Source of the DNA: Pseudomonadales bacterium
Lineage (GTDB): Bacteria > Pseudomonadota > Gammaproteobacteria > Pseudomonadales > Azotimanducaceae
DNA length: 44,585 nucleotides
Direction of reading: 5' to 3'
Assembly: GCA_007131295.1 (NCBI GenBank)
Contig: SLQW01000098.1
Coordinates: forward strand, 1 to 44,585
Shown here piece after piece: positions 34,926-37,782 of this stretch. Position numbers and translations under genes: made by a program. A model generated the notes under the pieces. That model was given only the letters and a program-made list of their open reading frames with translations. It did not search any database and had not been told where the DNA came from. The first letter of the stretch is position 1, and each line of letters begins with the position of its first letter.

Positions 34926-35498
34926 CTAAAGCTGACGTATCTCGTCCATGAATTCCTGCCTTAAACGCGACCACTCGAGCTTGAACCAGGGCGTGAAGGC
35001 TTCCGGGTCAGATTCGAGCTCACGATCCAGAGCTTCCGGCTCGATCCAGCGCCAGGCACTGATTTCGTTGCGATTGACTTCGGGCTCACCCCTGGCCCGA
35101 CCGATATATACCCAACATAGTTCGCGCTCTGCGCCAGAGTCCCCGAATACGGCGTGGTAGGTAAATTTATAGAGAAACTGTAGCGAACTCTGCATCCCGA
35201 GTTCTTCGTCGAGGCGGCGCCCGACGGCTTCTTCCATGGATTCATGGCGCCGCGGGTGGCTGCAGCAGCTGTTCGACCAGTATCCCGGCCAGAGTCGCTT
35301 GCCGGGAGCGCGCTGCTGCAACAGCAGGCGCCCGTCCGCATCGAAGATGAACAGTGAGAATGCACGATGAAGTACGCCCTCGCCGTCGTGACAACCCGCC
35401 TTGTCGAGGAAACCGACGGGGTTGTCGTCGACATCGACGAGAATGAGTTCTTCCGCCTCGGAAGAAACGATCGCGTCGCGCTTTGCTGGTTCAGCCAA
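34926..35498 (-). CDS. idi: Isopentenyl-diphosphate delta-isomerase, type I
   Basis: Idi interconverts IPP and DMAPP, which the mevalonate pathway needs because it makes only IPP. The 190-residue product is the type I (Nudix-fold) enzyme. The catalytic cysteine is C79 in NSCCSHPR, the Nudix block is AVGRRLDEELGM and the catalytic glutamate pair lies at 124-126 (AERELCWVY). The start codon is TTG 35498, supported by an almost perfect ribosome binding site (GGAGGTGAT) five to six bases upstream. It overlaps the fused reductase-kinase gene by eight bases. Confidence 0.94.
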   Translation of the reverse strand: MAEPAKRDAIVSSEAEELILVDVDDNPVGFLDKAGCHDGEGVLHRAFSLFIFDADGRLLLQQRAPGKRLWPGYWSNSCCSHPRRHESMEEAVGRRLDEELGMQSSLQFLYKFTYHAVFGDSGAERELCWVYIGRARGEPEVNRNEISAWRWIEPEALDRELESDPEAFTPWFKLEWSRLRQEFMDEIRQL

Positions 35499-37782
35499 TG
35501 ATCACCTCCAGCGTGTCGTAGCCTGCATCGCGCATGGCCTGTTGGACGCGGCGGGATATTGCCGGGTCGCTCTCTGGACATAGTGCCACCATCGAGCCGC
35601 CCCCGCCGCCGCCAGTGAGCTTCGCGCCCAACGCGCCATGACTGCGGGCGATGCCGATGAGATCCTCGAGAGCGGGCGTCGAGAGCTGCAGCCCATTGAG
35701 GATACCGTGACAGAGATTCATGAGTTCGCCGAGGGCGCGGCTGTCCCCTTCCTTGATTGCGTGCATGCCCTCGAGAGTCAGGCGATCGATCTCGTCGAAC
35801 ATGCGCTGGTACCGGCCGGGGGCGCCCTCCCAGGCACGACGGACACTGGCCACGGTGCGTGCGGTCAGACTCTCCTCGCCGGAAATCCCAACAATCAGGC
35901 TGAGTGCCACGGCCGGCTCGAGCAGCTTGAACGTTGCCCCTGTTTCCCCGCGCTGATAGAGCATCATGCGGCCATAGGTCGCCAGCGTGTTGTCGATTCC
36001 CGAAGGGGTGCCGTGGGCCGCCTGCTCACACATGAAGGCGAGGCGATTGACCTCTTCGTCATCGAGACCGAGTCGGTAGTGTTGGTCCAGTGCCCGGATG
36101 ACTGCAACGGCAAGCGCAGACGACGCTCCGAGTCCCATGGCCCGCGGCACCTTGGGGAATACCTCGATGGTCATGCTGCGAGAGTCGAGGTCGAGCTGTT
36201 CCAGGATGCTCGCGAGCACGCGGGCGAAGCCTTCATCCGCGGCTTTCAGGCGCTGTTCGAGTCCCCAGCGAGGAATCATCAGCAGCACACCTTCAGCACT
36301 GTCCACCACCCTTGCCTCGACGGCCAGGGGAATCGGGGCAGCGATGGCATGACTGCCGTAGACGACGGCGTGTTCGCCGAGCAGGATGACCTTGCCGTGG
36401 GCCGATGCGCGCGGTTCGCTGGCGCTGTCCGTATCTGCTGCCTGTGTCGCCCGGGAAGGCGCGGACGTGGTGGCGTCGCGCAACTCGTTCAGTATTTCCT
36501 GCGCGCGCCAGATCTTGATTTCTCCGGACTCGATCAGGCGTTCCACCAGGGTCTCGAATAGTTCCGGTGGCGCGCCCGCTGCATTGGCGACCGTGCGCGC
36601 GTGCAGGGTCATGTGCCCCTGTTGTATCCCGTCAGTGGCAAGGGCGCGCAGTGCGGAAAAGTTCTGGCCCAGGCCCACGGTCGCCATCACTGCCGCAAGT
36701 TCCGTTGCGCTCCCGACGCCGAGAATACGGTGACTGAGGGCGACCGTGGCGTTGGATTGCAGCGGGCCACCGACAGTACCGACTTTCATGGGCAGTTCGA
36801 TACGGCCCACGAGGTCTCCGCGCTCATTCGCAAACCATTCCGTGAGGCTGCTATAGCGCCCGCTGCGCGCAGCATAGGCATGGGCTGCAGCCTCGATGGC
36901 GCGCCAGTCGTTTCCCGTTGCCAGAGCCACCGCATCGACACCGTTCATGATGCCCTTGTTGTGGGTCGTGGCCCGATAGGGGTCAACCCGGGCGAAATCG
37001 TTGGCGAGGATGATGCCGTCCCGCACCTGTTCACCGGAATAGCCTTTGCCGGCCAGATTCGCGAGTGGAATCGTCACCTCTGCCCGGGCGAGGGCGCGAT
37101 CGGTCAGATTCGACAGGATCCGCAGGTAGACCTGGCCACCGGTGATGCTCTCGAGCAGCGAAGCGACACCTTCGCACATGGTGTTGACCAGGTTGGCACC
37201 CATGGCATCGCGGGTATCGACGAGAAGGTGGACCACCACCATCTCGCGGCCGTCGCTCGGTGCGGTGTGCCTGTGAACTTCGATGTCCCTGGCGCCGCCG
37301 CCGCGGGCGAGCATTTTGGGGTGCAGTGAATTCGCGAGGTTGATGATCTCTTCGCGGTGGGCGAGCACTGCTGCGACAGCGTTGTCGGGATCGGCGGGTG
37401 CGACGATCTGTACCTGGCCGATCAGAATCGGGTCAGTTGCTTCTGCAAAGAAACCACCACCGAGCCGCGCCGTTTTTGCTGCCGAAGACAGGGCTGCAAC
37501 GATGGATGGCTCCTCAACCACCAGCGGGATGACGTAATCGCGACCGTTGATCAGAAAGTTCAGTCCAAGCCCAAGCGGCAGCCCGAGTACCCCGATCACG
37601 TTTTCGATCATGCGGTCCGCGTTGGCGAGCTTGAGCGTGTGTTCACCGCTCAGCAGCGCAGCAGCGTCCGCGCGGGAGACCATCCCGCGAGTCTCGATCG
37701 CGCGCACGCGCTCGTGCACGGACAGTCGATAGAAGTCAGGAATCCGCGATCCCGGTTGCTTCTCGCTCGACTCTGACGCCAT
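35491..37782 (-). CDS. Fused HMG-CoA reductase (class II) and mevalonate kinase
   Basis: One 763-residue chain joins two consecutive enzymes. Residues 1-435 are a class II HMG-CoA reductase with the catalytic set seen in Pseudomonas mevalonii: E91 (VVEEPSIVAA), K276 (THNKGIMNG), D292 (TGNDWRAIE) and H390 (IQQGHMTLH), plus RDAMGAN. A linker of about 25 Ala/Ser/Thr-rich residues follows. Residues 461-763 are a GHMP mevalonate kinase with GKVILLGEHAVVYG, PRAMGLGASSALA, GTPSGIDN (catalytic D597) and KLTGGGGGGS. The fusion converts HMG-CoA to mevalonate-5-phosphate. ATG 37782 overlaps the upstream gene by 47 bases; residues 13-21 (RIPDFYRLS) align with the family N-terminus, so a later start is unlikely. 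Confidence 0.95.
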   Translation of the reverse strand: MASESSEKQPGSRIPDFYRLSVHERVRAIETRGMVSRADAAALLSGEHTLKLANADRMIENVIGVLGLPLGLGLNFLINGRDYVIPLVVEEPSIVAALSSAAKTARLGGGFFAEATDPILIGQVQIVAPADPDNAVAAVLAHREEIINLANSLHPKMLARGGGARDIEVHRHTAPSDGREMVVVHLLVDTRDAMGANLVNTMCEGVASLLESITGGQVYLRILSNLTDRALARAEVTIPLANLAGKGYSGEQVRDGIILANDFARVDPYRATTHNKGIMNGVDAVALATGNDWRAIEAAAHAYAARSGRYSSLTEWFANERGDLVGRIELPMKVGTVGGPLQSNATVALSHRILGVGSATELAAVMATVGLGQNFSALRALATDGIQQGHMTLHARTVANAAGAPPELFETLVERLIESGEIKIWRAQEILNELRDATTSAPSRATQAADTDSASEPRASAHGKVILLGEHAVVYGSHAIAAPIPLAVEARVVDSAEGVLLMIPRWGLEQRLKAADEGFARVLASILEQLDLDSRSMTIEVFPKVPRAMGLGASSALAVAVIRALDQHYRLGLDDEEVNRLAFMCEQAAHGTPSGIDNTLATYGRMMLYQRGETGATFKLLEPAVALSLIVGISGEESLTARTVASVRRAWEGAPGRYQRMFDEIDRLTLEGMHAIKEGDSRALGELMNLCHGILNGLQLSTPALEDLIGIARSHGALGAKLTGGGGGGSMVALCPESDPAISRRVQQAMRDAGYDTLEVIIG
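35501..35509 (-). promoter_or_regulatory. Strong ribosome binding site of idi
   Basis: GGAGGTGAT on the minus strand matches the 16S anti-Shine-Dalgarno sequence at all nine positions and lies inside the last codons of the preceding gene, with six bases between GGAGG-T and the TTG. It decides the idi start. Confidence 0.75.

Follow-up and report, generated by a model that had tools for sequence, protein, structure and literature searches.

The 44,585-nucleotide contig SLQW01000098.1 (assembly GCA_007131295.1), from a Pseudomonadales bacterium of the family Azotimanducaceae and referred to here at its full length as the window, includes a gene on the minus strand (nucleotides 35491 to 37782) in which a class II 3-hydroxy-3-methylglutaryl-CoA (HMG-CoA) reductase (HMGR) and a mevalonate kinase (MK) are joined in a single reading frame. 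The frame is open, with no internal stops, over 763 codons from an ATG at 37782 to a TGA at 35491-35493. An alternative longer frame starts at a TTG at 38067 and would code for 858 amino acids; the ATG was preferred as the start codon, since it is there that the family sequence becomes alignable. The gene is located in a row of overlapping minus-strand genes in the order diphosphomevalonate decarboxylase (MDD), phosphomevalonate kinase-like protein (PMK), fusion, and isopentenyl-diphosphate isomerase (IDI).

Pfam analysis of the full protein (E ≤ 0.001) revealed HMG-CoA_red (PF00368) at residues 22-395, with 352.9 bits against a cut-off of 27, followed by GHMP_kinases_N at 522-603 and GHMP_kinases_C at 673-750; no thiolase domain was found among these matches. 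Both halves exceed the curated equivalog cut-offs of NCBIfam, the reductase with TIGR00532 (residues 8-395, 412.2 bits, cut-off 259.95) and the kinase with TIGR00549 (residues 461-734, 235.5 bits, cut-off 163.05). The Pseudomonas mevalonii reductase (1qax) can be aligned to residues 12-435 and the Leishmania major mevalonate kinase to residues 459-740. On the basis of these matches and of the structural comparisons below, we define a reductase half (residues 12-435, nucleotides 36478 to 37749), a linker (residues 436-458, nucleotides 36409 to 36477) and a kinase half (residues 459-763, nucleotides 35494 to 36408), all on the minus strand. A preliminary description, made from the nucleotide sequence alone, had placed the linker at about residues 436-460, in agreement with the points where the alignments of the solved relatives end and resume. 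Conservation was examined at 19 positions in 75 fused rows, namely the window protein and 74 related fused frames (70 of the 75 being distinct). The reductase residues E90/E91, K276, D283 and H390, which we take to be the catalytic Glu, Lys, Asp and His, are invariant in all 75 rows, and so are K464, E470, H471, S554, E586, D597 and K721 of the kinase, presumably the GHMP motif residues and the catalytic Lys, Glu and Asp. The second Ser of the GLGASSA motif is variable (Ala in 52 rows, Ser in 23). The single frame with two complete and intact enzymes that the preliminary description had proposed is thus borne out by the domains recovered from the full protein, by both NCBIfam scores and by the invariant key residues. 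Within its own genome, rated 98.17% complete, the fusion is the sole HMGR-family match and the sole whole-protein match at E ≤ 0.001.

An AlphaFold2 model, built on a 35-row alignment that included the window protein and 34 of the 47 named fused loci described below, had a mean predicted local distance difference test score (pLDDT) of 87.9, a predicted template modelling score (pTM) of 0.59, and two confident domains. Only residues 1-7 and the linker stretch 440-454 showed a pLDDT below 50. Foldseek analysis of the first half returned the P. mevalonii HMGR as the best matches, with 52% identity, and that of the second half the L. major and Methanosarcina mazei mevalonate kinases, with about 29-33% identity. 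When the gene was compared with five copies from the same genus, nonsynonymous (dN) and synonymous (dS) divergences were 0.040-0.047 and 1.13-1.39 for the reductase, and 0.072-0.112 and 1.06-1.22 for the kinase. The linker dN was 0.60-0.80, a value that is based on few codons, and dS was near saturation throughout. The two halves are subject to strong purifying selection, unlike the linker. The linker length ranges from 5 to 76 residues among the 75 fused rows. The low linker pLDDT, the high linker dN and the variable length suggest, as far as sequence and model can indicate, that the tether is flexible and that the two enzymes are kept at a ratio of 1:1. The same three features leave without support the earlier proposal that the protein hands mevalonate straight to the kinase; channelling, or its absence, is beyond what a sequence can show. 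Locus L070 has the longest linker (76 residues as aligned here), which includes a tandem run of a GRESL motif. At two other fused loci (L068, 8001-10094, and L071, 2313-4358) the reductase alignment ends about 33 residues early, the C-terminal reductase tail being apparently deleted.

The distribution of the fusion was analyzed by searching with the whole protein 97 related genomes, 61 of the window's family and 36 from other families of the order, and some match was found in 48 of the 97. In 38 of the 61 family genomes, the window's own included, one stop-free frame spans at least residues 13-740, and in a further genome (G023) the fusion is split across two contigs with the linker within one of the pieces, raising the number of fused family genomes to 39. 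The 37 other intact family copies show 52-89% identity to the window protein. The best matches in the remaining nine genomes were partial and weak (E no better than 1e-7), and the fusion was absent from all 36 genomes drawn outside the family. Wider draws, scored for a maximum of two candidates per genome, gave the fusion in 10 genomes out of 369 for the class, the own genome included and one (G275) matching only from residue 374 onwards, and, at E ≤ 1e-30, in 2 out of 398 for the phylum, the own genome and G911, which belongs to another family of the order.

A scan of genome contigs with named sources, of which the best 80 of at least 589 confirmed relatives were kept by a ranking that favours fused loci, yielded 45 intact fusions, two fused loci cut by a contig end (L075 and L076), and 33 unfused loci. 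The architecture first read from this one contig was therefore recovered in 39 of the 61 family genomes and in 47 of the best 80 named loci. By record name, the fused Gammaproteobacteria include Woeseiaceae, Nevskia, Salinisphaera and Dyella monticola strain 4 G-K06, among others, and the other fused records include a Rhodospirillaceae metagenome-assembled genome (MAG), Cryobacterium (three strain genomes and one MAG) and a Nakamurella MAG. Fused MAGs are also labelled Calditrichota, Acidobacteriota and Planctomycetota; MAG names are those of the submitters and may reflect binning, and it is for the strain genomes that the assignment is firm. Of 41 genomes drawn from the genus of Cryobacterium aureum, 12 are fused, eight as one alignment and four as two in-register stretches of one frame of 815-828 amino acids. 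The C. aureum genome of locus L065 (G495) harbors, besides the fusion, a second, stand-alone class II HMGR (contig C28, 60189-61442) with 45% identity.

The relation of the fusion to the methylerythritol phosphate (MEP) pathway was assessed with the marker genes IspG and DXR. IspG and DXR were each found in 17 of the 61 family genomes, the two sets being identical, and this set has no member in common with the 39 fused genomes (Fisher p = 5e-11, kinship being ignored). Since no fused genome of the family (0/39) has a MEP marker gene, the family's carriers probably reach mevalonate-5-phosphate by the fusion alone. Of the 47 named fused genomes, which were searched for IspG, 39 are without it, D. 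monticola included.

The MDD gene (38737 to 39825, minus strand, start uncertain) exceeds the TIGR01240 cut-off (257.7 bits, cut-off 171.35) and overlaps the PMK gene by 4 bases. The latter (37736 to 38740, minus strand) encodes a GHMP kinase that reaches 100.7 bits with TIGR01220, below the cut-off of 165.7, and overlaps the start of the fusion by 47 bases. A type 1 IDI gene (34926 to 35498, minus strand), which exceeds the cut-offs of both TIGR02150 and NF002995, extends over the fusion stop with an overlap of 8 bases. A divergent HMG-CoA synthase is encoded at 31168 to 32688 on the same strand, with PF01154 and PF08540 over their cut-offs and TIGR01835 at 157.8 bits, below 360.35. With these genes the window includes a candidate for each step from acetoacetyl-CoA to isopentenyl diphosphate (IPP) and dimethylallyl diphosphate (DMAPP). 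Relatives of the neighbours were found at the 47 fused named loci as follows: PMK at 42, MDD at 41, IDI at 36 and HMG-CoA synthase at 14. These counts, as well as those given below for hopanoid genes, are lower bounds, as several loci are short, and a few of the matches lie on the opposite strand.

The cofactor helix of the reductase includes the motif HPKMLAR (HxKxxxR, residues 154-160, nucleotides 37303 to 37323, minus strand), in which H154 replaces the Asp of NADH enzymes. According to the passages of a preprint that deal with this helix, Dx(V/L)xxxL marks NADH enzymes and (H/Y)xSxxxR marks NADPH enzymes, while a third group follows neither rule (PMC13370337). The 75 fused rows have HxxxxxR in 73 cases and HxExxxF and NxNxxxR in one case each, and the third position of the 73 is occupied by K (45), R (12), N (11), Q (3), H (1) or S (1). 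The NADH-type helix was not found in these rows, the first position being Asp in 0 of 75 and His in 74. Among the 33 unfused rows the helix begins with Asp in 17 and has the form YxSxxxR in 8, all of them from Bacillaceae. Replacement of Asp154 by Lys in the Ruegeria pomeroyi HMGR is described, in the relevant passages, as raising NADPH activity 53.7-fold with NADH use retained (PMC12292504); the aligned Asp is residue 137 of the RefSeq protein and was taken as the paper's D154. The fusion is predicted to prefer NADPH or to use both cofactors, a prediction qualified by the lack of Ser at the third position, and the HxKxxxR helix suggests NADPH and biosynthesis despite the label 'degradative' of its best family model.

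We propose that the gene encodes one bifunctional biosynthetic enzyme of a mevalonate route that replaces the MEP pathway in the window's family, and that the fusion brings a fixed 1:1 ratio and a benefit of proximity; we assign this reading a probability of about 0.88. The N-terminal class II reductase would convert HMG-CoA to mevalonate, probably with NADPH, and the tethered C-terminal kinase would convert mevalonate and ATP to mevalonate-5-phosphate. PMK, MDD and IDI of the same row would complete the route to IPP and DMAPP, which would supply the adjoining squalene and hopanoid genes and other isoprenoids, the fusion taking the place of the MEP pathway. Its advantage would probably be that a reversible reductase is kept at a 1:1 ratio and near a committing kinase, so that free mevalonate stays low; a closed tunnel is not implied. 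It is from the sequence data that we infer both activities, the use of NADPH, the 1:1 ratio, the proximity and the kinetic benefit.

The origin of the fusion was examined by separate trees of the two halves. In the reductase tree, made by a quick method with 46 fused and 33 unfused rows, the fused rows form one side of a branch with an SH-like approximate likelihood ratio (SH-aLRT) support of 99, which can be called a clade only with a root placed among the unfused ones. In the kinase tree (46 fused and 9 unfused rows), a topology with the fused rows held together was no worse than the free tree (approximately unbiased test, p-AU 0.54). The pairwise identities of the two halves correlate (Mantel r 0.84, 46 rows), with none of 999 permutations as high. 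Repeated independent fusions were considered and set aside: the reductase tree needs one state change and the kinase tree two, the second because of the unfused locus L072, and a single clade is not rejected. L072 is a Myxococcaceae MAG in which the HMGR and MK genes are adjacent, separate and in the same frame, representing either a secondary split or a tree artefact. One fusion event followed by joint inheritance fits as the simplest account, which the kinase half does not contradict. The Cryobacterium rows are next to a Salinisphaera MAG in both the reductase and the kinase trees, from which we infer that the fusion spread partly by horizontal transfer.

Several observations weigh against the biosynthetic reading or some part of it. 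PF08540 was found in 19 of the 61 family genomes (17 over cut-off), and a search with the window's synthase at E ≤ 1e-20 returned the same 19, of which 16 are among the 39 fused genomes; 23 of the 39 are thus without an HMG-CoA synthase by either search, including the one-contig genomes G041 and G043. No synthase was found among 15 ORFs near the fusion, part of those listed, in G041, G043 and a Candidatus Azophilus MAG (L041), the scanned ORFs encoding an amidase, sterol-related proteins, a peptidase and other products. PF08540 gave no match in Methanocaldococcus jannaschii or Sulfolobus used as controls, so archaeal-type synthases would be missed, and a possible source of HMG-CoA in the synthase-negative carriers would be leucine breakdown. 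Five of the 61 family genomes (G008, G016, G021, G034 and G047) have neither the fusion nor IspG and DXR, and searches for the HMGR family and MDD found nothing in them; three of these (G016, G034 and G047) are the remaining synthase-positive genomes. They may represent an assembly gap, as suggested for G034 by its belonging to the same genus as the fusion carrier G059, or an unknown source of IPP; G016 is rated 100% complete, contrary to a gap. Beyond the family, IspG is present in 8 of the 47 named fused genomes, these being all four from Cryobacterium, L040, and the MAGs L056 (labelled Planctomycetota), L061 and L075 (both labelled Acidobacteria), and in these eight the mevalonate route would be an addition and not a replacement. 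To these are added the departure of the cofactor helix from (H/Y)xSxxxR at its third position, and the free kinase tree, in which L072, on a very long branch, is placed among the fused rows. It is the 23 fused genomes with no recognized synthase that slightly reduce our confidence in the proposed function.

The MAG of L041 also includes, at 668-4183 and 4-7 kb from the fusion, genes for an ERG4/ERG24-family reductase, a Rieske oxygenase and an SdmB-like protein, the last with 309 bits, below the cut-off of 600. Some fusion carriers may make sterols, judging from these genes.

Other explanations of the gene differ widely in their probability. The window belongs to a draft genome of 222 contigs, a situation in which an error of sequencing or assembly could fuse two neighbouring genes; however, the stop-free frame found here recurs in 37 other family genomes, with one more copy split between contigs, and 47 of the best 80 named loci kept are fused, so that the loss of a stop at the linker by sequencing error, which the preliminary description had named among the findings that would overturn it, is rejected, and an artefact of any such kind is extremely improbable. 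A degradative role, with the reductase half running in reverse in mevalonate catabolism as in P. mevalonii, is brought to mind by the structural matches to that species' enzyme and by the name 'degradative' of TIGR00532, a further point to be held against a biosynthetic assignment. In the fusion, however, the reductase is joined to a mevalonate kinase and lies beside MDD, PMK and IDI, the MEP genes IspG and DXR are absent from the fused genomes of the family, and the NADH-type Asp has given way to His, within an HxxxxxR helix in nearly all fused rows. We judge the degradative role, as deduced from a family name, very unlikely on these grounds.

Two further explanations concern what the fusion does. 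If the kinase were released by an internal start or by proteolysis, one gene would give two products, and an ATG, GTG or TTG is indeed present between the positions of window residues 437 and 463 in 36 of the 75 fused rows; the other 39, among them the window copy, have no such codon, and we regard release as improbable. A closer competitor is a fusion that serves co-expression only, in which the enzymes work independently and the 1:1 ratio is fixed with no kinetic benefit of proximity. It is consistent with the short, variable and unconstrained linker, with a model whose pTM of 0.59 comes without an inter-domain error value, and with the eight Bacillaceae loci kept, in which both genes are adjacent and unfused. 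The retention of the fused state across distant groups argues for something more, as does the observation that L072 alone among the kept rows can be read as a split, in a scan whose ranking favoured fused loci. We consider co-expression alone to have a little less than an even chance. The bifunctional enzyme with a benefit of proximity could also be part of a bolder scheme, in which an old, single fusion would act as a 'commitment module' from which mevalonate rarely leaves, within a mobile MDD-PMK-[HMGR-MK]-IDI cassette that would have supplanted the MEP pathway in gammaproteobacterial lineages and been carried into Actinomycetota, Calditrichota, Acidobacteriota and Planctomycetota, with HMG-CoA in the synthase-negative carriers maybe coming from another source such as leucine breakdown or an unrecognized synthase. 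We consider the scheme in this full form rather unlikely.

Natural fusions in this pathway have a precedent in MvaE of enterococci, in which an acetoacetyl-CoA thiolase is fused to a class II HMGR. The window protein is alike in joining a class II reductase to another enzyme of the mevalonate pathway; it differs in that the reductase is N-terminal, the partner is the next downstream enzyme, a GHMP kinase, and there is no thiolase domain. The P. mevalonii HMGR, which is stand-alone and catabolic, shares the fold, the catalytic residues and the 52% identity in structural alignment, but the two Pseudomonas rows have DxLxxxL, of the NADH type, where the fusion has HxKxxxR. The L. major and M. mazei kinases have the same GHMP mevalonate kinase fold and are stand-alone in the solved structures. 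In the Bacillaceae (Oceanobacillus, Virgibacillus, Ornithinibacillus, Lentibacillus and Paucisalibacillus) HMGR and MK are adjacent in the same order, with the helix YxSxxxR, but they are separate genes in different frames at all eight loci. IspDF of the MEP pathway is likewise a natural bifunctional enzyme of isoprenoid precursor synthesis, but it belongs to the other pathway and catalyzes non-consecutive steps; it is the sole fusion mentioned in the passages of PMC13001223 considered here.

No description of an HMGR-MK fusion was found in the open-access papers searched, in accordance with the preliminary description, whose author knew of none; automatic annotation and domain databases may already show the architecture. 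The preprint cited above for the cofactor helix surveys about 7,000 bacterial HMGRs; in the portions considered it does not use the words 'kinase', 'fused' or 'bifunctional', and its passages on fusion refer to a maltose-binding-protein tag (PMC13370337). The main text of a survey of metabolic gene fusions, in the portions considered, includes no words beginning with mevalon-, isopren- or terpen- (PMC4921024). A mevalonate pathway is reported for Wenzhouxiangella in the corresponding passages of PMC7691419. Fusions of consecutive pathway enzymes are common and MvaE already joins a class II reductase; here the partner of the reductase is a kinase.

The mevalonate genes of the window are part of a larger group. 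Together with hopanoid genes (squalene-hopene cyclase, SHC; squalene synthase-like, SQS; HpnG, HpnH, HpnB, HpnM and HpnN) they form one cluster on the minus strand between 27960 and 43661. This cluster includes an HpnB-like glycosyltransferase (32649-33761; TIGR03469 355.6 bits, just below the cut-off of 379.25), the HpnH adenosyl-hopene transferase (33758-34867; TIGR03470 over cut-off), SHC (40511-42691; TIGR01507 823.5 bits, over cut-off) and a squalene synthase-like protein (42546-43661; SQS_PSY, and TIGR01559 at 124.6 bits, below cut-off), all on the minus strand. Squalene may be made by this single squalene synthase-like enzyme. Relatives of HpnH were found at 6 of the 47 fused named loci, of SHC and SQS at 5 each, and of HpnB at 3. 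The other end of the window, between 2754 and 12837, includes ordinary core genes for a pseudouridine synthase, Maf (minus strand), acyltransferase and ketoacyl proteins of fatty acid synthesis, an aminotransferase IV, YceG, thymidylate kinase and a DNA polymerase III subunit, which suggest that the contig is chromosomal. Carriage of the fusion by plasmids was considered and rejected: 59 plasmid records match, none covering 80% of the protein, and the ten rows inspected cover 55-59% each. A frame of 662 amino acids on the plus strand (13997-15985), opposite a gene for a DPP-IV family peptidase, has no Pfam match and is probably a shadow frame due to high GC content.

In descriptions of the mevalonate pathway, HMG-CoA reductase limits the rate and mevalonate kinase is the step on which feedback usually acts. 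A protein in which nature has joined the two would be a ready-made part for isoprenoid engineering, and with it one could test cleanly whether the reductase and kinase steps are affected by proximity. Within the window's family the fusion marks bacteria that are without MEP genes, and among distant bacteria it may be used as a traceable marker for the movement of the pathway.

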